Of a stretch of DNA of 64,000 nt, positions 14,801 through 52,755 are shown one piece after another. This DNA is from Muricea muricata. Taxonomy: Eukaryota > Cnidaria > Anthozoa > Malacalcyonacea > Plexauridae. The stretch is from positions 1,203,001 to 1,267,000 of the forward strand of contig OY979731.1 in the NCBI GenBank assembly GCA_963855995.1, in the 5' to 3' direction. Numbering within the stretch: the first letter of the stretch is position 1; each line of letters opens with the position of its first letter. The notes below the pieces were generated by a model. It was not told where the DNA came from. It saw nothing but the letters and a program-made list of their open reading frames with translations, and made no database searches. The position numbers and the translations under genes are program-made.

Positions 14801-17800
14801 TCATTAGAAATTGATGCGGTCTATAAACAGAGAAAGAATTGCATTTGCATGACCAAATGTTTCGCCGGCTTCGTCATTGACTGTACATGTTGTAATTATA
14901 TGTACAATGTTTTATCTTTTATAGCCGAGTGACGCAGGAGAGGTTGATTTATCTCTGACGGAGCATTCTCAAGTTCTCTCTTGCGTACGTAGCCTTCAAT
15001 ATCGTAGTTGCACTTCGAAATTGTACATGGCAAACTGGGAAACAATCTTGCGGAGACATGTATTCTGTCCCTGTTTGCCATCTACGGGAATCATTGTTTA
15101 AAGCGTTGACCCGATGTAGGCTTCACCCAAACACGAGTCTTTACTATTGATATGCATAATACTGGACCACGTATTCAATGACATCCAGTCAAGCGAACGG
15201 AAATGACGAATTTGGAGCACCAAGATTGCGATCAATAAGCTTTTTCAATCCATGTTTTCAATATGTAAATAAACTTCCTTATTTTAAGGAAATGTACGGA
15301 AATTTAAAACTCTGCCTAAAAGCTTACTCTTACACCCGCAAAGAACACTGGACCTGAAGTACCAACATAGCGGCGATGAACTTCAAGATTTTACTATGAA
15401 TACGTGTCCTGTTTTATACAGATCAATGGCCTTTACCAGAAGTTATCGTTCCAGTGTTTCTATAGCGTTCCTCGTTTGCCTAGCGTTACTTAAAAAATTA
15501 TTTTTGTCCCATTGTTAGTTGACATTACATCGGGCGCCTCCACCGCGTTCACGAAGGCCGCCATCTCTGAAAAAAAGGTGATTGTATGCTTGCAATAATA
15601 TGAAACGATCACGACTTGCTCTGAGCCTTAACAGCGACGGTACAATGGCTACGGGTAATCAAGACATCTCCAGACTTTTCCATCTTCGACCATGTTGTAG
15701 CAAGGATGTTGTCAAGTCTTTCTGTTTGTTTCAAGTTGTTGGAACAAGTTTGAAACAAGCTGTTAACAACTTGTAACAAGCTTGATGCGACTCCGAAAAT
15801 AAACATGTTGAATTTCTAGCTTTCAGCTAAGTTTCAGTCATCATCAGGTGATATGATATATATACAAGTTAGAGATTATATATGGAATTAGTTGAATATT
15901 ATCAAGTCTTTAAAGGCCTTAGTTCCGTGATTAAGTCTGTGCTTATAGCGTCGAATGACAAGTAATAATAAGGACCAGCGTTCAGATCTATCTATAATCT
16001 TGGAGTTATTAAATATCAATTCTCGTAATATGCATGTTTAAGACAAGTTCGTTTAGTCATCAGGATAAAGTTCTTAAAACGATTTGATGTACTGGAAAAG
16101 TACATCAAATACAGTACTTAGAATTCCCGTAATGTACTGGATCTTCTTAACATCTTCCCATGTAGATAGAAATATTTTTAGCCCATTTTATCTGCCCCAA
16201 TTCTTCTTCAATTCTTTCTGCCCAAGCGTAGTTCTGTAATTCATATAAACAACTTAATTTTTCGCTTGCGATGCAAATGTTTCTTTACTTTCAATTCTAG
16301 GAAAGTGGGTAAAGTCGATATCAAGCCCTCAGATCCTGACGTAAAAACAGATCTCAAGGTAAAATTATTTTGTCTAAATTTTTTATATCTTCTTGTTCTG
16401 TTACTCTGAGTTTATATCCACACCGGGCAAGCTGAAAAAATGCCTGACCACGGTGGGAATCGAACCTACGACCTTTGGAATGCTAGCCCAATGTTCTGCC
16501 AAATGAGCTACGCGGTCAGGTCGGTTCGAGCATGTGATATTTCCAAACTGAGTGCTATTTTTAATGTAAGCATGATTTTTGTGTCTTGTTAATTTACGAT
16601 CCAAGAAACTAGACTTAGTTTTGAAATATCACATAATCGAACCGACCCAGAGCATTGAGCTAGCATTCCAAAGGTTCGATTCCCACCGTGGTCAGACAAA
16701 TTTTTCAGCCCGCCTAACTACATAAGACCAAAAGTCACAATAAGTATTTTCTGTCGAGATTTCTTGTTAAATTTGTCGAAATATATTGAATGCTATCTTA
16801 TTCTGTTCTTTCAGCAATTACCTCGAAAACCCCCTAGTCCCCCTCCGAGACCCAATTTATCCCCAAGTAACTCCATCTCACCCGCAGCGGCATCGAAGAT
16901 CGAGGTAAGACGTTTTTCGTAGCAATGTCTAGGTTTTGTGTTCCTGCCACTCGCCTCAGCCAGGGAGGATGTAATGGAAGAAGCATACATTTGCCCCAAG
17001 AAGTTCCCTAAAGATCGACGTGTGTCCCACTGTAAATCTATCCTAAAGTTTGTTCCAGTACAGTGATTGACCATAGGCTGTGTTTGTTTGTATAGAGGCG
17101 GAAACGTTCAGCTCCAGAATTACCGAAAGGTGCTACGTTTGAAAGAGATGTGGAGGTAATTAGAAAACTCTCATACAAACTCTCGCTTCTTAACTCTCAT
17201 GCAACTCTTGTTCTCGTTTGACCAGGACACGAGAGTTGAGAAAACTCTCATACAAACTCTCGCTTGTCAACTCTCGTCAACTCTCATGCAACTCTTGTTC
17301 TCGTTTGACCAGGACACGAGAGTTGAGAAAACTCTCATACAAACTCTTACTTATCAACTCTCGTCAACTCTCATGCAACTCTTGTTCTCGTTTGACCAGG
17401 ACATGAGAGTTGAGAAAACTCCCATACAAACTCTCGCTTGTCAACTCTCAACTCCCACACTTACTTAACCAGTACCTTAAATCTGAACATGGTTTTCATG
17501 TTTTTTTAGCTTGATAGTGAAGGAGGTAGCTTGCCGTCAGATTCACCAACTGGAGATTCTCCTGTTTCGACTCTTAACTTGAAACGAAGTGTAAGTGTAT
17601 GATACCTGCTGGCAGTGGTGTAAAAGTACCCCTCATGGTATATGGTACATGAGAGGTGTCCGACTGGGCAGGCGCGACATACAGGGCAGGTAGCGGCAGA
17701 GAGATGACGGTAGGTTTCATTTCTGTGCTTGGAGGAAGACGGAAGAGAGAAATGCATAAATTTGAGTTTCTTGTCAGCTGTCATTGCTTGCCGACCGTTT

Positions 17801-25931: not shown

Positions 25932-26869
25932 TTCATCAAATCACCCTTATACAGTATACACACACACGCTTGTAAGCAAGACATTGTAAATACAAAGAAT
26001 CTACATGTGGCATTTGATAAGGGGGTTTTTCTCGAAGGACCTCTTTCGACCAAGAGTTGAGGCACAGTATAAGGAATGTGGAGAGTAGGGCCACCTAAGT
26101 GAATTTTGTGTCCGCGCATATCGCATTACGCATGTCATCATCCCAGCCTGTCAATTGCATTTTCTGGCCAGTAAGAACGTTCAAATCATACAAACAGGGC
26201 GAAAAGTTGCATTGCTGAGTGGCCTTATTGTCCATTCGCTTTACTCTGGCCAGCTCAAGGTTTAAAATTTAACCGTCCACATGTAGAAAAATTTTGGTTA
26301 GGATTTGAAATTCCCACAGCTGAGGTAAAAATTTTGAGCCACGTTTAAATTAAATTTTACTGTAGTGAATATAACAGTGACTTTAAACCAGCATGGCAAA
26401 GAAATCAAAATTGTGTTATGCACAGTTGTCAAAGTATTAATGTGTGGTTTTTCGAGTTGACCGTTATCTCTGAAACGCACAAACATATCAGGTGCCAGTT
26501 GTTTCAAAGCTAGGTTAGCGTTAACCCTAGGTTTAAGTATAACTCGTTGTTTTAGTTTCTGTATTTCTACATGTCCGTTTTTTTTCAAAACTTTAGGTAA
26601 AAAAACTGCTGGGAATTTGCTTCGACTCTGAAGTTGCGGCTTTTGAACAAATTTGACCGAAAATGCTGTAATTATGTTTCATGTTCGGCTCAAAAGTGGT
26701 TATTTTTCCGCGCCTAATACAAAAGTATGGATATGGACGATGAATAGAAATGCCAGTGACAGACACCCCCCCCCCCTTGCCGTCCACTAAGTACAAAGAG
26801 TGTAAAGTTTGCACTTCGTAGAAGCCGTCCTCGGCTGATTGTACAAAAAGTGGATGGTGGAAGGAAAAG

Positions 26870-27075
26870 TAGATTTTTTTCAACTGCCGCAGAAAGGCAC
26901 AAAAAGCAACGACAACAGGGATATTGAACTTGCAAGAGATAAAAAGTGACCTTACCTTGAACATGTTGGACTTAATTCGGGATTTTACGAGTTAGAGAAC
27001 ATGTTTAGAAAGTTTCAAAACATCACCAGCTATCTAGTGGATAGCGCTATTTACTTTTCGTACAACCGTTCTAAG
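26870..27075. mobile_element. GGATAG-type MITE copy (partial)
   Basis: TTCAACTGCCGCAGAAAGGC, GGGATATTGAACTTGCAAGA and TAGTGGATAGCGCTATTTAC, then TTTCGTACAACCG at the right end, match the fuller copy at 44574-44795 in reverse orientation. Another fragment (12810-12898) keeps only the terminal part. Confidence 0.55.
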
Positions 27076-28702: not shown

Positions 28703-31700
28703 CTATTTTTTCAACACCTTAATCATGCCTAACTCTCCTGGCAGGACGGAATCATCTTCGCCGGGAGGCAGACTCTTGGCCATCTCTCTAGCTTCTTCGT
28801 AATACAACCTTGATTTCTGAAACCGCTCCTTCTCACCATGGTTCATACTGAATAACAGTAATACGAGTACCACTCTTCCACATTTATAATTGAACCTTTC
28901 TGCAATCTCTCTTGCTACGTCTAAGCATGCCAACATACCATCTCGTCCTTTATCATCTTTTACAAGGCCTCTATGCATGAAACTCTGTTGATATAAACTT
29001 TCAACAAAAGCAGGGCATGTATCTTTTGTTATCACAACTCCCTCCTGCGTCTCACAGGCCTTTTCTTTGTTGCTTTGTGCTTTGTAGTTCGATATATACA
29101 ACTGTCCCACAGTATTAACAATATTTCCATAGAGATCTTTATTACGTTTGTCAGATGCATTCATGTCGAGAGCTTCTAAATAAACCTGAAAAGCTAAAAG
29201 AAACTCACCACGTTTGTCATGAGTTGTTCCAATGTTATATAGCACAATAGCTCGAGTGAGGTAATCTTCTTCACTATGATCATCTAAAATTTTTTTTGCT
29301 TCTTGAAAACATCCTAGAGATGCATCTAAATTTCCAGCCTGATCTAGAGCCTTTCCAAGACTATTCAGTGCATTAGCGACATGTTGCTGTCCAGGATACA
29401 ATTTTCTTGCTTGTTCCAAAGCACTTCCAAAGCTCTCCACAGCACTATCTATTTGATTTCTTTCCAAGAAGAGTTCTCCTAACTCCGTTAAGGTATCTAT
29501 TTTAACTATACAAGTAAAAAAACAACAAGTTTAATTATTCTCTCGGCAATTTGTTCTTTGAGGTAAAAGGGATACAAATCACGTTTGGTCCAATTAAGAA
29601 TGTTGACTTCATAAAAATACAGACTTTTTTACATAACTCTCAGCACATGGATACAACACTTCGTTTAAAACAAAACTATTACGCCTTTCGCCATATACGA
29701 TTAGACGTATATGCATTATCATGTATATATATATATATGATACGCCTGGCATCACAGTAAGGGTAGAATATTTTGCATTTTAAAAAGGATTTTGCTGAGA
29801 CATTCTTGCTACTTTCTGCTCCACATTAAAGAAAAGCTATGTACAGGCATTCCATGAATTTCTGTATCATACTAATTTTCAAGTCTTAGACACATCCTAC
29901 AATGACGTAACTTTAGATCTCCCTATAAGGCAAGATATACTTAGTAAGATTCTTTAAGGGGCTGTTTACATGAGCCCGGTTCGCCGGCATGAGACGGCCA
30001 GGCTGAAGGGTTTGCAATGAGCGTTAACTTTGTCGCCAATAGTGACTTAGCAAATTACATACTATGCAGTTGCGTTGAATGAGGATTCAATGCTAGCCAG
30101 GCTGATGATGGACAACTTTCATCCTGGTTGACCCGGCGCTCCGCTGAGTCAAGTCATAGTGAAAGCCCACTTGAAGCCGGGCGCCTCGTTTGAAAGGGAC
30201 AGTCCGGTAACAGGGCTAATGTAAATAGCTATCTGGATACGGTTGTATAAAACTCTTAACTATGCATTTTGATCACCCGTTTTGTATTCAAGTAGCAGTT
30301 GACTATCAAGTGCGGAATTCTGATTGGTTTACAATCTTACCTGGATGCGCGGTGTTGCCATATAAAGTCGTCGCCAATTTCAAACTTCGCTCCAGCATCG
30401 ACGAAGCCTCGTGATAACGGCCACACTTTCTATAGACATAGGCAGCCTCTTTATAAATTTTAGGCAATTCAGAACTAAGATTATGCTCACCAAACAACTT
30501 ATGAACAAGGCGCAACACTCTTCTTATGTGCTTCAAAGCCCGATCAGTTTCATTGAGTTTACTACAAGTCACTGCCATGAGAATGTTTAGATTGACCGTA
30601 TGTATGTCATTGCAACGCGTCATTCGTTCCTGCATTTTTTCAACATTTTCAAAATATTCAATGGCCGATTGCATCTCGTCACGTTTATAGGAAAGGTGGC
30701 CACGCTCCAGCATCAACTGACTCCAAATCACTGTCTCAAAATCTTTGCCGTAGCTTTCCTCATGCAACTTTATTGCTTCCTCCAACTTAATTTTGGCTTT
30801 TTCAAGTTGGAAAATTTGCAGTAGGCAGAATACAAGATTACGATAAAAAGTAAGAGTGTGAAATGGATCCTGGGAACATTTCAACGCTTCTTCAAAGGTA
30901 AGAGTGTGAAATGGATCCTGGGAACATTTCAACGCTTCTTCAAAGCATTCAATGGCCTTTTTCCATTCTTTCTTTCTTAAGTGATCATCTCCTCGAGCAC
31001 CAGCACATTGGGCGTATTCTGGCGAATCCTCGGGTATAGATTCTCGGATTTTTGACGCTTTGGAGAAATTTTGTACTCGGCAATAGAATCTCTCCAATAT
31101 TAGGGGGCGAGAAACAGGTTGGTACTTGAGTATAGTGGCTTCTACTTTGCCCTGTTGATTGTACTTTAAAACAAACTTATGACAACGTTGGTGCAAGTCG
31201 GTGCTAGTAGTCAGAAGACGAACCAGAGTATCTTCGTCAAATTCGCGGAAAATAGGGTGTTCGGTGGATTGTTCAGCAGGGTCTGGACTTTGAGGGAGAG
31301 GAGAAAACAGTTCTTTCTGTCCATTGTTTGCAAAGTATGTTTTGAGTCTTATTTCGTTTGCAATCGATAAACATACTTTGAACTCGGTGCTGTCCGATTC
31401 AGTAATAATATTTTGATTCCTCAATTCGGAAATTACTTCCCACGGCGAGGGATATTTGATATTAAACACTAATCCTAGATCTGAAAGAAGTGATGAGATA
31501 AGACGGTAGAAGTGTTTCTTGGTGTCGAAAAGACCACCTATAGGTGAATCGAAGTAGGAACTGGCAGGATCATAGGTTATATTGTCCTGCATCATTTGTA
31601 GAATTCCTCGGGTAACGCCTGCAGACGAACTTGCAGACGACTTTTTATTCAATTTCTCAGCCACGCGCTTATTGTAGTCAACCAATAAAGCTTCTTCCCC

Positions 31701-34700
31701 GTAAAGCAGTGTTACCCTGGTCATAATATCAGCTAAAAGATAAAAATAATTATATCATGCACTACAAAAAGAGGTATATCAACTTGATTAAGCTACAATG
31801 TGCTCACTTTATCATCTTAATCACTCCAGGATGTTAATTACAGTAAAAAAATACCACATTAAGTGTAACGCAGTTTTCTAGCCAATTACTTTGAGAATGC
31901 AATAATTTCCCAATTTGTGTCAGCTATTTTTATATATTTGATTAAATCTTTCACAGGAAGTGAATCGAGTAATACCAGGTATCCCAAAAAAAGTACGCAC
32001 TTCGCTTTGATTCATAATAACTTCTAAACAAGTGGAGCTATTCGACTGAAATAACTTGTATTGGATACTGGGAAGACTAACTTAGAATTGATATATTATT
32101 TTTCTCGAAAATTCATGAAGATATTAATGTTTAAAATCAGTAGAAGATTTCTGGACGTGTCTAAAACGTGTAAAAAACATCGTATCAAATATTAAACAAA
32201 CTTTACTCCACTAAAACACGCATGCATTAATAGCAATAATTAAATGAGTGCACTTGACAATTGTTTATTATGAAACAAGAAATTATTACTAAAAAAATAA
32301 AAACAAGATTGATACTTTCGGAATAGCGTCTCGTTTTGCATGAATGCATACCTATAGCCCTTGAGCCATTATGGCATTGCGTCAAGAAGTCACGGATTTC
32401 GTTCTATATTACGGATGCCGTCACAACTGAGTTGTGAAGTTCGCTTCTGAAATATGCATTTGCTGATTGTGTGATATGTTCCAAATATCTTACTAAAGGT
32501 ACATATATTAAAAGTAAATGCAATCAATGACCACCCTGTATAAAATGGAAATAATAATACATAAATATTGATGCAACTCTCGTGAGAACAGCTCATACAA
32601 CTCTCAAGATACATTTTTGGAGCAAAACATAACAAAAATAATAACGAACATTTACAAACTTGAGTCCCTTACAAACCTTTGCAACAATTTATTGAAATAT
32701 AAGTTAGCCTTAAGCTGAGCAAACCACGATTTTAATAATTGATAAGCCAATTTTCGCTAAATTAAGACAGAATAAAAAAATACAACTGTAACATAATGAT
32801 CAAAATCTAAGTTAGACATTCCTCGATCTAATGCAGCAAGTGATTTTAGTGTAATAGCTTCACTAGTTTGGAAGTTATTATGAATCAAACCGGTGTAACT
32901 ATTTTTTCAATATTCGTTTAGACTCGTTTGGATTAACATATGGTCACTGTATTTTGCACAATGCCTTTATTTATATACAACATGGAAGTTTGAACAGTTC
33001 ACCATGTTTCCTATTTGATGTTAAGCCGGTCTATTAGTAAATTGGTGATTAGTATCTCTAAACATTTCTGCAGAATTTCACACACAAAAATATTTATATA
33101 AACGAAGAAAATCAGCAAAATGTAAAGCTTAAAACCCTGATTTTACTCTGAACCAACGGCAGCCTTTCTTTGCTTTTCCCATTGCATTGATTTGTTTAAC
33201 ATTCAAAAATAAAATTGTCGATTTTAAAGGCGTTATACACTATTTTCACTAAGTCCCATTATGCTGTGCGCGCGCTTTGTGTGGGGTAACAAATTCTGCC
33301 AACATCGTAGCAAAATGTCGTCGCTTTAAAACTGTAAAAAGCTTGAGGCTTTAGAAAGCTGAAAGAGTTGAAAGAGCTTGTTATAGCGCCAAAGCGACGA
33401 CATTTTATTTTGAGTTTACTGAGATTTGCTGCCCAAACAATGCACGCGCGCAGCATTATAGGATTTAGTGAAAATAGTCGAAATGTATTATATTTCTTGT
33501 ACGTTTGCATGGTGAATATCAAATTAAAAGTTTACAGTCGCAAACTTTTGATCCGTAAGCTCGGATCTTAAATCTTAATCAGTGCAAATAATAATGCGAC
33601 TAATTTAAATTCACACGTCCCTTAAACACACGTCCTTTTTCTCTCGAAATCATACGTATAAATTGCTTAAATTTAAAAAGAGGAGACACTGGTAGCTCTG
33701 GTAGCTATAGAAACAATAAGTCTGGAAAGCAGCCGTAACAACATGAGTAAAACTAAACCATAGTATGCATGGGTTCAAAAAGTATAAATCTACCTCGAAA
33801 TCTTCTGCCCTCTCCTCCATGCTCTATTAAGTAATGCTTGTACTGATTATCCCTGTTGATCTTACCTAAATGATAGCCTTCTTTAACAGCAGTTTCCTCA
33901 TCTTGCAATGCGGCCATGTGTTCTGGTGTTCTGATCAATTCCAAGGCAGGTTTATCTTCCGTCGCCATTCTACCAAGCGCTGTTTTTGAAGCCCATGGCA
34001 TTGCTCCATCAAACGAAATACCTCGAGGTGTAAACGAGTCATAGAACCAATTATTATCGGGGTCTGCGGACTGAAAATCATTGAGCTCTCTAATAGCCAA
34101 AGCTGGTAAAATGGTTTCTCCAAGGTTGATTACCTTCAGGTGAAGGAAGTGGCTCAATATACGAAAATACTCGATCTCCTTCCCTATGGTTTCGTCTTCA
34201 AATAAAATTGCAAATTCCAAATCTGAGAAAGGTGTTGCTTCCATACGTGCGACTGAACCAAGAGCAATGATAGCATATTTACATGGTGGTTGACCCAGCT
34301 TGGCCTCGCATTCGTTAACGAACATTGATACAAGTCCAACGTACATTTCTTGAATATCGCGGCAAACCTCGTACGTCTTCTCTGCATAGATCTAAAAATA
34401 ATAACATTCCAAAATCAAATCAGTTTCTATTGCGATTTTCTCTTTTGAAGGGTGAAAACACATAGTAGTGCTGAATGGATGTACAACTTCTACAGAAAAA
34501 CCTTAGCCCCTGGTCAAACTATGATGGTTTTCGTAACAACAGTATATGATATCACTAATCAGGCATTTGAAACGAGATGTCATAAGCAAAAATAAAACAT
34601 CTGCTTGCAAACAGCGGTCCATTATACGATTTGCATAAAATGACGCGCCAGACTCGACAGTTGATTTTGACAGCTTTGTATATACAAGACTATAAAGTAG

Positions 34701-35591
34701 GTTATGACTGTACTTCTTTGTATATTCGAGAACTATTTATGCGGAGAAATCTCGTTGTATAAACATCATTTGTACAAAAGAGCGTAAGAACTATGCAGTT
34801 AAATACGTAAGATCAAAATTTAAAACTATTTCAATTGTACAAAAGATGTGATCAAATTAGCAGTACGACATATTAATTATTAATACCTCGTCGTCTCGTT
34901 TCGTTTCACTATTCTGATCCAATCTCTTCTTAAGGCTTTCCCTTTCTCGGGCAACCCACTCCTTGTGAGAATCAATTTCGTTTCGAATCTCTTCAACACT
35001 CGTTCCACCGTCATCATCTTTTGCAAATGTCGCTAAAAATTCGCGATACGTTTCAACAATTCTTCTCAGTATTTGATCTTCGTCTATTTCATGGCGTACA
35101 TGTCTTGACCTGACGAGGGCAGCGTTGAAAAGTGCGTCGGCCTTCGTGAAATCATTGGCATTCATAGTTGTCTTTGCCTTATCCAAGTACCATTCCCCAA
35201 GTTTAACGAGTGCAAGGACTTGTTTTGATAGATCTTCGCCTGCTTCTTTGAGTGTCTCGACTATTGTCGATACATCATCCAGATGTATGTTGTCTGCAAT
35301 GTATCCAGCTTCTCGGAAATATCCGTTAGAATTCCATCCCATCTCTTCGTATTTCTTTCTTAACTTCAGTGCGACAACTAACCACATCCAATTTCTATAT
35401 GAACCACCAACCTTGGCAATACGTTTTGCTTCGTGTAAATGTTGTAAAGCTTCGTCATCTTCTCCTAATGTTTCACAGGCCAAACTTAGTTTATAAAGAT
35501 TGGCTGCATGATAAGGGGATGACGTTTTGGTGAGTGGAATCTCTTTAAAAAAGTTCACAGCTTCGGTGTAATCTTTCTTGCACTGTTCCAT
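28703..35591 (-). CDS. DUF294/GlnD-like nucleotidyltransferase fused to TPR array (1165 aa, 4 exons)
   Basis: Coding exons, in transcript order: 35591-34887, 34391-33794, 31732-30341, 29505-28703; phases agree and total 3498 nt. The start ATG (35591) has an in-frame TAA four codons upstream. Residues 1-235 are helical and TPR-like (KLSLACETLGEDDEALQHL). Residues about 236-434 form a nucleotidyltransferase domain with ALGSVARMEATPFSDLEFAI: G280-S281 and the metal-binding pair D292-x-E294, the pattern of DUF294/protein-PII uridylyltransferase N-terminal domains. Residues about 435-590 (FDTKKHFYRL, WEVISELRNQNIITES, ANEIRLKTYF) resemble the substrate-binding partner domain of DUF294 proteins. 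Residues about 660-1165 are TPRs of kinesin-light-chain spacing (KKAIECFEEALKC, EASSMLERSLKLATTLYG, AIVLYNIGTTHDKRGEF). No signal peptide or membrane helix. A perfect 48-bp in-frame duplication breaks one TPR. The substrate is unknown; transfer of a nucleotide to a protein or small molecule is an inference from the fold. Confidence 0.85.
30850..30945 (-). repeat. Perfect 48-bp in-frame tandem duplication in the NTase-TPR gene
   Basis: Positions 30850-30897 and 30898-30945 are identical. In the protein (about residues 697-728) the 16-residue segment FEEALKCSQDPFHTLT occurs twice in a row. It follows WKKAIEC at the start of helix B of a TPR, so the extra copy disrupts the normal 34-residue period. 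With no substitution between copies, it is very recent, a gene-conversion product, or an assembly artefact. Confidence 0.95.
31733..33793 (-). other. Large intron of the NTase-TPR gene
   Basis: The intron between exons 34391-33794 and 31732-30341. It is AT-rich and contains the inverted-repeat element at 33237-33482. ORFs of 60-90 codons here lie inside that element or have no splice support. Nothing else is recognised. Confidence 0.6.
33237..33482. mobile_element. MITE-like element in the NTase-TPR intron
   Basis: The left terminus is CACTATTTTCACTAAGTCCC, followed by ATTATGCTGTGCGCGCG. The right terminus is its near complement, CGCGCGCAGCATTATAGGAT then TTAGTGAAAATAGTCG. Inner blocks AAAATGTCGTCGCTTTAAAA and AAAGCGACGACATTTTATTT also pair. 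About 245 bp, non-coding. Confidence 0.7.
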
Positions 35592-39322: not shown

Positions 39323-41624
<2,302 letters not shown>

Positions 41625-45164: not shown

Positions 45165-45295
45165 AACCGACTTGACCACTTAGCTCAGTTGGCAGATGAG
45201 CATTGGGCTAGCATTCCAAAGGTCGTAGGTTCCATTCCCACCGGGTCAGGCATATTTTTCAGCTTTCCCGGTGTGGATATAAACTCAGAGTAACA
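45165..45295 (+). mobile_element. tRNA-Ala-like SINE (family 2), copy 3
   Basis: The plus strand reads CTTGACCACTTAGCTCAGTT, GGCAGATGAGCATTGGGCTA, GCATTCCAAAGGTCGTAGGT and TCCATTCCCACCGGGTCAGG, then the tail GCATATTTTTCAGCTTTCCC and GTGTGGATATAAACTCAGAG. The anticodon loop CTAGCAT (AGC) is kept. The T-arm end has lost bases compared with the 16444-16519 copy. Confidence 0.7.
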
Positions 45296-50500: not shown

Positions 50501-52755
50501 GCAACTTTATATCATTTGATTACCTATGAACTGTTACAGGCAATTTGCCAAGATTTTACAATTACGTATATACGTATATAGTTAGGGCGGTTTAATGGCG
50601 CTATCAATACCCTGTTATTAAACTCTTTAAGCAACATTTCAAGTTTAAGGCACTTTACACCGAATATATTTTGGACATTGAAACTGCAACAAGAAAAACT
50701 GGTGTGTGTGTGTGTGACATACAATTAACTCAGTACTGACAACTGATAAGTTGAAGACTTGACATGCTAGCTGGATACTTATTATTCTTCACTCGTGTGT
50801 GATAGTCGATTGAAGCACTTGCACGCGGTCTGTTGTTGTGGAAGCCATATATGCATGGCGAGGTCTTGAGAAGTAGAAAGCAGTTATAGTGTATGGCCAC
50901 AATTGCTGGACTAATATAATTCACAGGGGCGGTTGTACGATAGGTGGATAACCCTATCCACCGGATAGTGATTTTTTCAACTGCCGCAGAAAAGCATGTA
51001 AAAAGCAAGACACCAGGGATATTGAACTCAAAAGAGATAAAAAGCGACTTTAACTTGAAATTATTGAACTTTAATATCAGTTTCACCAGTTGCGCAGTTT
51101 TGAATAAAACATCACTATATTTGGTGGGTAGCACCATTCATTTTTGGCCCCAGAGCTTCTTCATATAAGGCTGGGGAAAAACAGGAACTTTGTTTAAGAA
51201 CGGAACAACGTTAACGAGCAAGCTCAACACTTAGTTGCCAAGTGATCATTATAAGAAGAAACAAAAAGTTGATGAATGTAACAGGATATAACACCACGTC
51301 ACTGCAGGCTCCGTTGTTTTAAAGACAAATAATGATAAAACAAATATATCAGTATTGGACCTGTATTAGTATGCATCACTATACTTGGTGACAATGTGAT
51401 TAAAACAATTTATTCTCTAGTGAAGCAATTATAATGTCTATGCATGAGTAACATTTTTTTTACTATAGCATTAATTATTGTTTGCGGGGAGGTTATGTTC
51501 CCCCCAATCCCCCCGTCCCTCATTTTGTCTCCCGCTCTGGATCTTTAGAACTATGTGTCGTGAGGATTGAGGTCGTGGGTACAAAACAATAGTTCAAACT
51601 GGAGCAAATTAGACTTGTGTTGTACCACCCATTCTGTAGTTAGGTAGTCAATGCTTGCGGGGAAATTCATGCACACATACATAAAAAGCGGACAAATTAT
51701 TTTCTGAACTGTTTTTATATCCTAACTCAGAAAGAAATAGACTATATGGACGCTCTAATTCCTAGGGTAAACACATATGTAGATTTTAAATTAGTTGTTA
51801 CAATACTGTGCAACCTTCTCCATCCTGTTGAGGTTCGCTCCTCATTTTTTTGATAGATGACACTAGAAGTCACTTTTCTATATACCGCTATCATGATAAG
51901 CATTGGCTGTCGTAGTTATTACATGCGTATGCTTCATCACAACCTTTGTCAAAACCCGATTCTTGCATACGTGTTAAATCAAGATTTATACCAGCACGTC
52001 TATAACCTTTGTGCAGTACTGCATGCATCCACCACATTTCAGACTCTGTTATCATGAAATTTGGAAAACACGCCTTATTATCACTTGCTAAAACCCATGG
52101 TACCGTTAAAAGAGTACGTATCTGCTCACAATAGGAATTCTAATGGCATGCAATAAGCGAGTACAAAGAGACAAGAGGTATAGATATACTTTAAAAAGTA
52201 CTGTGTTGTAGCACCGTTGTATGACTTGGATAAAACATAGTTTAAATAAAGGGTCTATTAACATTTGAACAATAAAATAACAAAACAGATCTAGTATAAT
52301 TTTATCTAATACAACCGACTAGTTTGATTGTGTTTAATGCTATGACTTTTAAGTTCTCTCCTCAACAAAGACCTAACAGCATGGCTTCATGTTAAAAACA
52401 CGTTCTTATAACACTTCTCCTAAAGTTACTGCGTCAAAAACCGCCCTAAAAACTAAAGCTTAAAACCCATGAACAGCTTGAAAACTTTGCGGTTAAAATA
52501 GAAGACATCTTATAACATATACACGTACCCAAACTCCTATGTACATTAATTGCTTGACTTGATTCGACAGCGCGACATTTTCGTTTAGGATTCCCCCCTT
52601 AAGGTTATTATATACGTTAACAAATTATGCTCAAATGTACCTTCGAGATGCTGATATCCGATTCAAACTTGATGTCTGATTTGAAACGTCTGGTAAAACC
52701 TTCAAAGTCAAGAAACGCTTCCTTATAACCTGTCTTATTTAACTGTGAGTTTGAG
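47567..52755 (-). CDS. Unrecognised minus-strand gene (three phase-matched exons)
   Basis: Exons in transcript order: 52755-52641, 48418-48191 and 47680-47567, each with AG acceptor and GT donor (gtacat, gtaagt, gtaaat). They join in phase 0 to a continuous frame of about 152 residues, including GYKEAFLDFEGFTRRFKSDI, TCGIVGKKLSLKQFDNLVTF, AYLSHLESNNIFPSGELFA and EQLCELQTNMFLNIDNFLSS. In each exon the other frames are closed by stops. I do not recognise the family. The last exon could also be terminal, since its frame runs on to a TAG at 47543. The first exon needs a phase-2 predecessor. Whether it is separate from the ephrin gene is unclear; the content gives no sign of an ephrin N-terminus. 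Confidence 0.45.
48105..48180. repeat. TA-rich low-complexity tract
   Basis: Mostly TATATA-type sequence (for example TATATATATGTATAAATATG) directly after the donor of exon 48418-48191 on the minus strand. No coding meaning. Confidence 0.7.
49560..49640 (-). mobile_element. Possible tRNA-like SINE fragment
   Basis: On the minus strand, TATTTCAGTGGTCGGAACAT resembles an A-box region and GACGTAGGTTTGATTCCTGC carries a B-box match. Spacing is near that of a tRNA, but I could not draw a convincing anticodon arm. Only one copy is seen. Confidence 0.35.
50408..50482 (-). CDS. Candidate 75-bp exon, phase incompatible with its neighbours
   Basis: It follows a good acceptor (ctcttggcag) and ends at a GTGTAT donor. 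Only one frame is open: FHEQMLMLPCDTRDEAAFSN then NVKE, starting and ending in phase 1. It lies between exons 52755-52641 and 48418-48191, which join in phase 0, so it cannot be a simple cassette between them. It may belong to another transcript, or further small exons may be missing. Confidence 0.35.
50930..51130. mobile_element. GGATAG-type MITE copy
   Basis: GCGGTTGTACGATAGGTGGA, TAACCCTATCCACCGGATAG and TGATTTTTTCAACTGCCGCA on the left match the 44574 and 26870 copies. The right end (CATCACTATATTTGGTGGGT) is diverged. ORFs of 74-135 codons on both strands here are by-products. Confidence 0.55.

Follow-up and report, generated by a model that had tools for sequence, protein, structure and literature searches.

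A DUF294 nucleotidyltransferase joined to a TPR array in Muricea muricata, a candidate protein-modifying enzyme family with relatives in Neochlamydia

In the Chlamydia-like bacterium Neochlamydia, the NEX2 family comprises 50 proteins with tetratricopeptide repeats (TPRs), an F-box in the majority and DUF294 in most; ten members also carry OTU, only two members were predicted to be secreted, yet tested members have a working type III secretion signal, and NEX2 is termed no more than a putative nucleotidyltransferase (PMC4209131). DrrA, an AMPylase of Rab1, has been grouped with GlnD, GlnE and DUF294_C (PMC3710099), and a review of metazoan AMPylation names four AMPylase families, FicD, SelO, GS-ATase and DrrA (PMC8097203). 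Published AMPylase signatures are G-x11-D/E-x-D/E (PMC8097203) and GS-x10-D-x-D (PMC7641770). Here I describe a gene that joins a DUF294 nucleotidyltransferase to a long TPR array in an animal, found in a stretch of 64,000 nucleotides from Muricea muricata (assembly GCA_963855995.1, contig OY979731.1, positions 1,203,001 to 1,267,000), hereafter the window. I tentatively read its product as an enzyme that transfers a nucleoside monophosphate (NMP), probably adenosine monophosphate (AMP), to proteins, aimed by a diversifying TPR array and probably serving in intracellular host-microbe conflict, a reading that falls somewhat short of probable.

Read from the minus strand, the gene starts with an ATG at window position 35591 and its stop codon ends at 28703; both ends agree to the base with an earlier note made on this DNA. 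Its coding sequence of 3426 nt gives 1141 residues without an internal stop, and the four coding exons counted in that note are joined by three GT-AG introns (Table 1). The note had also proposed a nucleotidyltransferase-TPR fusion within one gene, and this stands: the exons for the two parts belong together because L023, an unspliced single-exon paralogue, reads EGYHLAD at the place where the exon 2/3 junction joins EGYHL to AD. An alternative donor at 33796 likewise preserves the frame; the paralogues favour 33866 as the end of exon 2. The gene, as predicted from sequence, is real and intact. Bacterial contamination is ruled out by the three introns of the window copy and by the size of the contigs that carry members of the family, 11.6-124 Mb.

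In Pfam scans, for which each window exon was scored separately and domains were listed at E <= 1, DUF294 (PF03445) is found in exon 2 at 42.4 bits against a curated cut-off of 21. TPR_12 is matched strongly in both exon 3 (E 4.2e-21) and exon 4 (Table 1). The TPR-like N-terminus seen in the earlier note is present as a match in exon 1, although a weak one (E 0.0023, below the Pfam cut-off). The DUF294-like partner domain that it had described becomes visible through relatives: DUF294_C (PF10335) has no match at E <= 1 in the window's own exon 3, but it reaches 25.1 bits in paralogue L018 and 26.3 bits in the Neochlamydia relative L036, against a cut-off of 22.5, and a profile shows the region to be homologous. 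Across an alignment of ten Neochlamydia and five animal module rows, DUF294 is found at E <= 0.01 in 15/15 rows, SidM_N in 13/15 and DUF294_C in 11/15. PADLOC models gave generic TPR matches (best E 5.8e-8) and weak nucleotidyltransferase matches (best E 1.2e-4, to PDC-M70A).

The catalytic pattern that had been called intact, G280-S281 with D292-x-E294, is indeed so, and it is identical in every row of an alignment of 35 sequences, 25 from this genome and ten from Neochlamydia (the broken Neochlamydia pair L045/L046 being excluded; besides the window gene, 12 of the own-genome rows were joined from four-exon pieces and four from pieces of L020, L027, L028 and L031). Residues identical in 35/35 rows are G280, S281, R284, E286, T288, S291, D292, E294, D353, G359, K371, G375 and I388 in the nucleotidyltransferase and Y486, R487, R539, Y543 and Q549 in the partner domain. 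D363, conserved in 34/35 rows, is tentatively proposed as a third metal-binding acid. A chance nucleotidyltransferase motif is ruled out by this identity together with the DUF294 score. The spacing, GS-x10-D-x-E (G280, D292, E294), fits both AMPylase signatures, with Glu in the last place. When three profiles were compared with all Protein Data Bank (PDB) sequences, the best match each time was DrrA (E 3.9e-4, 5.8e-5 and 4.4e-5), and in two of the three the partner domain was covered by a second, collinear stretch, which was not significant. These searches listed no GlnD or GlnE chain by name at E <= 10, and DrrA, rather than the GlnD mentioned in the earlier note, is the closest solved relative by sequence.

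Constraint differs sharply along the protein. Compared with paralogue L021, the ratio of nonsynonymous to synonymous substitution rates (dN/dS) is 0.49 in the N-terminus, 0.18 in the nucleotidyltransferase, 0.42 in the partner domain, and 0.85 and 0.69 in the TPR parts; compared with L011, over the comparable parts, it is 0.20, 0.40 and 0.69 for nucleotidyltransferase, partner and TPR, the limits of the parts being accurate to one residue. Counts of nonsynonymous and synonymous changes separate the nucleotidyltransferase from the TPR array (Fisher P 2e-6 with L021, 4e-4 with L011) and, less strongly, from the partner domain (P 0.01 and 0.04). Misalignment is not the main cause of the high TPR ratios, because dS is similar in the TPR and partner parts. 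Few stretches have a ratio near or above 1, and these are pairwise ratios rather than a test of positive selection; with more distant paralogues dS is near saturation. The tail of L021 may be relaxed, since exon 4 of that copy contains a stop. By these signs the predicted window gene is not a pseudogene, and a constrained enzyme beside a fast TPR array fits the sensor-effector layout suggested in the earlier note.

A lone gene is ruled out. Searching the 453-Mb genome with the PF03445 profile found at least 25 DUF294 loci (25 of the 26 scored candidates match, all 25 over the cut-off), a lower bound. Some of the loci form tandem clusters: four lie on C13 and four on C7, three on C3 near 40.8 Mb, and pairs lie on C15 near 10.85 Mb and on C16 near 2.5 Mb; the window copy, also on C16, is solitary. 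Thirteen genes including the window copy have the four-exon layout or parts of it and form one clade in the tree (support 100/100); inside it, L011, L021 and the window copy group together. Seven paralogues (L022, L023, L025, L026, L029, L030 and L032) hold nucleotidyltransferase and partner in a single open frame, and all seven match the window TPR part in that frame, the TPR matches of L022 being below Pfam cut-offs and L026 being truncated by the end of its locus. The break within the nucleotidyltransferase of L027 and L028 is taken for an intron. Stops or frame breaks occur in exon 4 of L021, in L018 and L031 (one in-frame stop each), in L020 (a frame break) and in L017, a sign of gene birth and death.

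The small number of exons had been thought to fit a transferred or retro-copied ancestor. An intron-poor ancestor of either kind is plausible, but the introns themselves were probably gained within the four-exon clade, because its sister group (L023, L025 and L026; node 96/85) is single-exon, an argument that depends on a tree to which a long-branch warning applies. The earlier note had put the gene forward as a candidate undescribed effector or modifier. No description of an animal DUF294-TPR family was found in the literature searched (titles, abstract openings and parts of texts, in which deep mentions or other names could escape), but the gene is one of at least 25 loci and its layout has been published as Neochlamydia NEX2. 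In public databases, animal proteins carry labels such as Protein-PII uridylyltransferase. Taken as a whole, the earlier interpretation is partly supported.

The nearest full-length relatives found for the family are effector candidates of the Chlamydia-like Neochlamydia. The Chlamydiae were sampled through one record, plasmid pS13 of Neochlamydia sp. S13, which the single-exon paralogue L023 matches by tblastn along 93% of its length (E 6e-44); four other records match its TPR part only (E 9e-6 to 4e-3). A profile of the animal module (391 positions) finds 12 matches on pS13, of which nine cover all 391 positions and one covers positions 2-391, with E-values from 1e-61 to 1e-73; the other two (L045/L046) look like one broken copy of the module split between two frames. 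By BLASTP, L023 and a Neochlamydia protein are collinear over residues 37-861 of 885 (25% identity, E 1e-53), and this alignment takes in the N-terminal helical part. Architecture and genus suggest that the pS13 genes belong to NEX2. Conversely, the Neochlamydia module matched six of 72,556 plasmid records by tblastn, only Neochlamydia over most of the query, the five Vibrio/Photobacterium matches being confined to query residues 7-78 of 386. In the phylum of G001 (labelled Acidimicrobiia), 19 of 296 genomes gave 22 matches, none of which reached beyond profile positions 9-86 of 391. Phages had no match to a paralogue or to the module, and viral contigs no confirmed relative. A peptide-pattern scan of genome contigs confirmed a single locus, L033, out of 63 pattern matches; L033 is no more than a short motif match, and its genome has no match to profile A2. 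The scan is uninformative on Chlamydiae because the required patterns do not fit the Neochlamydia sequences. The ten Neochlamydia rows form one group in the tree (94/94) amid deep lineages of the animal's own genes. The tree does not place the root: the branch that sets all 25 own rows apart has a support of just 60/26, the long-branch warning applies here too, and neither direction of transfer between animal and Chlamydiae is favoured.

If the product is a protein-NMP transferase, DUF294 and its DUF294_C-like (HEPN-clan) partner would attach an NMP to a hydroxyl group on a target protein, with ATP as the likeliest donor and AMP as the likeliest group, and selection of that target would fall to the long TPR array. 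The enzyme would be intracellular. Many gene copies, with quickly diverging TPR arrays beside a constant enzyme, fit a part in the recognition of intracellular microbes or in countermeasures against them. AMP as the moved group, protein as the target, the immune role and gene exchange between an animal lineage and Chlamydiae or their hosts are what I infer. Wider, and unlikely, is the proposal that one family of protein-modifying enzymes serves both parties to a host-microbe conflict after gene exchange, Chlamydia-like bacteria secreting its members as effectors and the animal using them as a diversified system of intracellular recognition and AMPylation. On that proposal, this would be an animal AMPylase family with a DNA-polymerase-beta fold and a repertoire-like TPR part. 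A multigene animal family with DrrA as its closest solved relative, and with chlamydial effector candidates as its full-length relatives, would link an animal repertoire to a class of bacterial effectors and would supply NEX2 with a tractable animal counterpart.

Several observations weigh against this reading. SidM_N (PF20879) scores 15.3 bits in the window gene and stays below the 27-bit Pfam cut-off in every row with bits shown (best 25.6, in L025); the E-values for DrrA are modest, about 4e-5 to 1e-3; the AlphaFold2 model of exon 2 alone was too poor to be used (predicted local distance difference test 47.1, predicted template modelling score 0.41); and the high TPR dN/dS can be explained by relaxed constraint. 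The second acidic residue is moreover Glu (E294) and not Asp, and in MntA the change of both Asp to Glu abolished modification (PMC7641770). The same substitution speaks for a protein that works through TPR binding, as a scaffold with an enzyme domain of little or no catalytic activity, but with the motif identical in 35/35 rows and the nucleotidyltransferase the most constrained of the compared parts, such a scaffold seems improbable. Decay of a duplicate that has no present function is very improbable: several relatives have stops or frame breaks and the window copy carries a 48-bp TPR duplication, but its frame of 1141 residues is intact, its splice sites are good and the nucleotidyltransferase dN/dS is 0.18-0.20.

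Nucleotidyltransferases of this fold are varied, NTP_transf_2 also matches weakly in Pfam, and the PDB gives a weak match to an aminoglycoside nucleotidyltransferase (E 0.057), so an enzyme acting on a nucleotide, RNA or a small molecule (a second messenger or RNA tailing), with the TPRs as a scaffold, is the leading alternative, if an unlikely one. Against it, DrrA, which heads the profile matches, is a protein AMPylase, and MntA, a weaker PDB match (E 0.49) that has the same spacing, modifies a protein (PMC7641770). It is distinctly improbable that the gene encodes a regulated metabolic modifier like GlnD or GlnE with a housekeeping target. The published grouping of DUF294_C with those enzymes (PMC3710099) and the matches of the DUF294 model in four of 14 bacterial control genomes would suit such a modifier, but no HD, ACT, GlnE or CBS domain is listed for any window exon at E <= 1, the PDB searches returned no chain named for either enzyme, and a clustered multigene family with a fast TPR array is unlike a housekeeping enzyme.

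Table 1. Exons and other features of the DUF294-TPR gene, in window positions
Feature	Position	Strand	Content	Evidence or remark
Exon 1	34887..35591	-	residues 1-235; weak TPR, then helical linker	aligned full-length with L021, 67.5% identity
Exon 2	33866..34391	-	DUF294 nucleotidyltransferase, residues 236-410 and first base of codon 411	PF03445 E 7.8e-11
Catalytic loop, G280-S281 to D292-x-E294	34215..34259	-	within exon 2	read from sequence, conserved in alignments
Exon 3	30341..31732	-	DUF294_C-like partner (~411-640) and first part of TPR array (~641-875)	
48-bp in-frame tandem duplication	30849..30944	-	TPR part of exon 3	lacking in L021 and L011
Exon 4	28703..29505	-	C-terminal TPR array (~876-1141) and stop codon	TPR_12 E 8.9e-17

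Elsewhere in the window, two minus-strand open frames (26593-26991 and 50730-51137) have translations that look alike by eye and are perhaps copies of a dispersed repeat, a long simple-repeat stretch (40726-41348) gives single-residue runs in several frames, and two tRNA-Ala (AGC) genes are predicted (16444-16518 and 45172-45251). The sole GFP-family match found in the genome, L049 (G000:C1 near 100.07 Mb), lies about 0.2 Mb from paralogue L011; it has stops or introns inside, and among PDB sequences its exon comes closest to red fluorescent proteins and GFP-like chromoproteins. These are anthozoan proteins, so the match agrees with a cnidarian source without proving it.

How does the gene compare with known systems? 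Like NEX2, it has DUF294 in mid-protein followed by C-terminal TPRs, and ten of the 12 places on pS13 cover the animal module profile from end to end, there too as a multigene set with one broken copy. NEX2 differs in its usual N-terminal F-box, which is seen in the pS13 protein but is not listed for the window exons (Pfam, E <= 1), and in its bacterial origin and the type III signal that tested members carry (PMC4209131). DrrA/SidM of Legionella shares the G-x11-D-x-D/E spacing, the order of nucleotidyltransferase and helical domain, and the best PDB sequence match, whereas its own other parts, as described in PMC8097203, are a Rab1 exchange factor and a domain binding phosphatidylinositol 4-phosphate, with no TPRs. 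The window gene also departs from DrrA in its SidM_N score below cut-off and in its Glu as second acid. GlnD has HD and ACT domains beside its nucleotidyltransferase. The window gene has in common with GlnD, GlnE and CBS-type DUF294 proteins a DUF294-type nucleotidyltransferase, but its exons are without an HD, ACT or CBS match.

MntA of HEPN/MNT pairs is alike in its GS-x10-D-x-D spacing (PMC7641770), and MntA and aminoglycoside nucleotidyltransferases are alike in placing the enzyme next to a fold of the HEPN clan, in bacteria sometimes together with TPRs (PMC3710099), but their sequence matches are weak and MntA makes up half of a two-gene pair. The anthozoan TPR-CHAT and GT1-TPR genes are likewise expanded, tandem, enzyme-plus-TPR families in corals (PMC12314368), with another enzyme domain; no CHAT domain is listed for the separately scanned window exons. 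Protochlamydia PEX2 is itself a TPR-CHAT protein (PMC4209131), and therefore two enzyme-TPR layouts are present on both sides, a parallel between corals and Chlamydiae that is suggestive only. A conserved NMP-transferase coupled to a fast protein-binding array, in many copies, would most resemble a system with changing targets.

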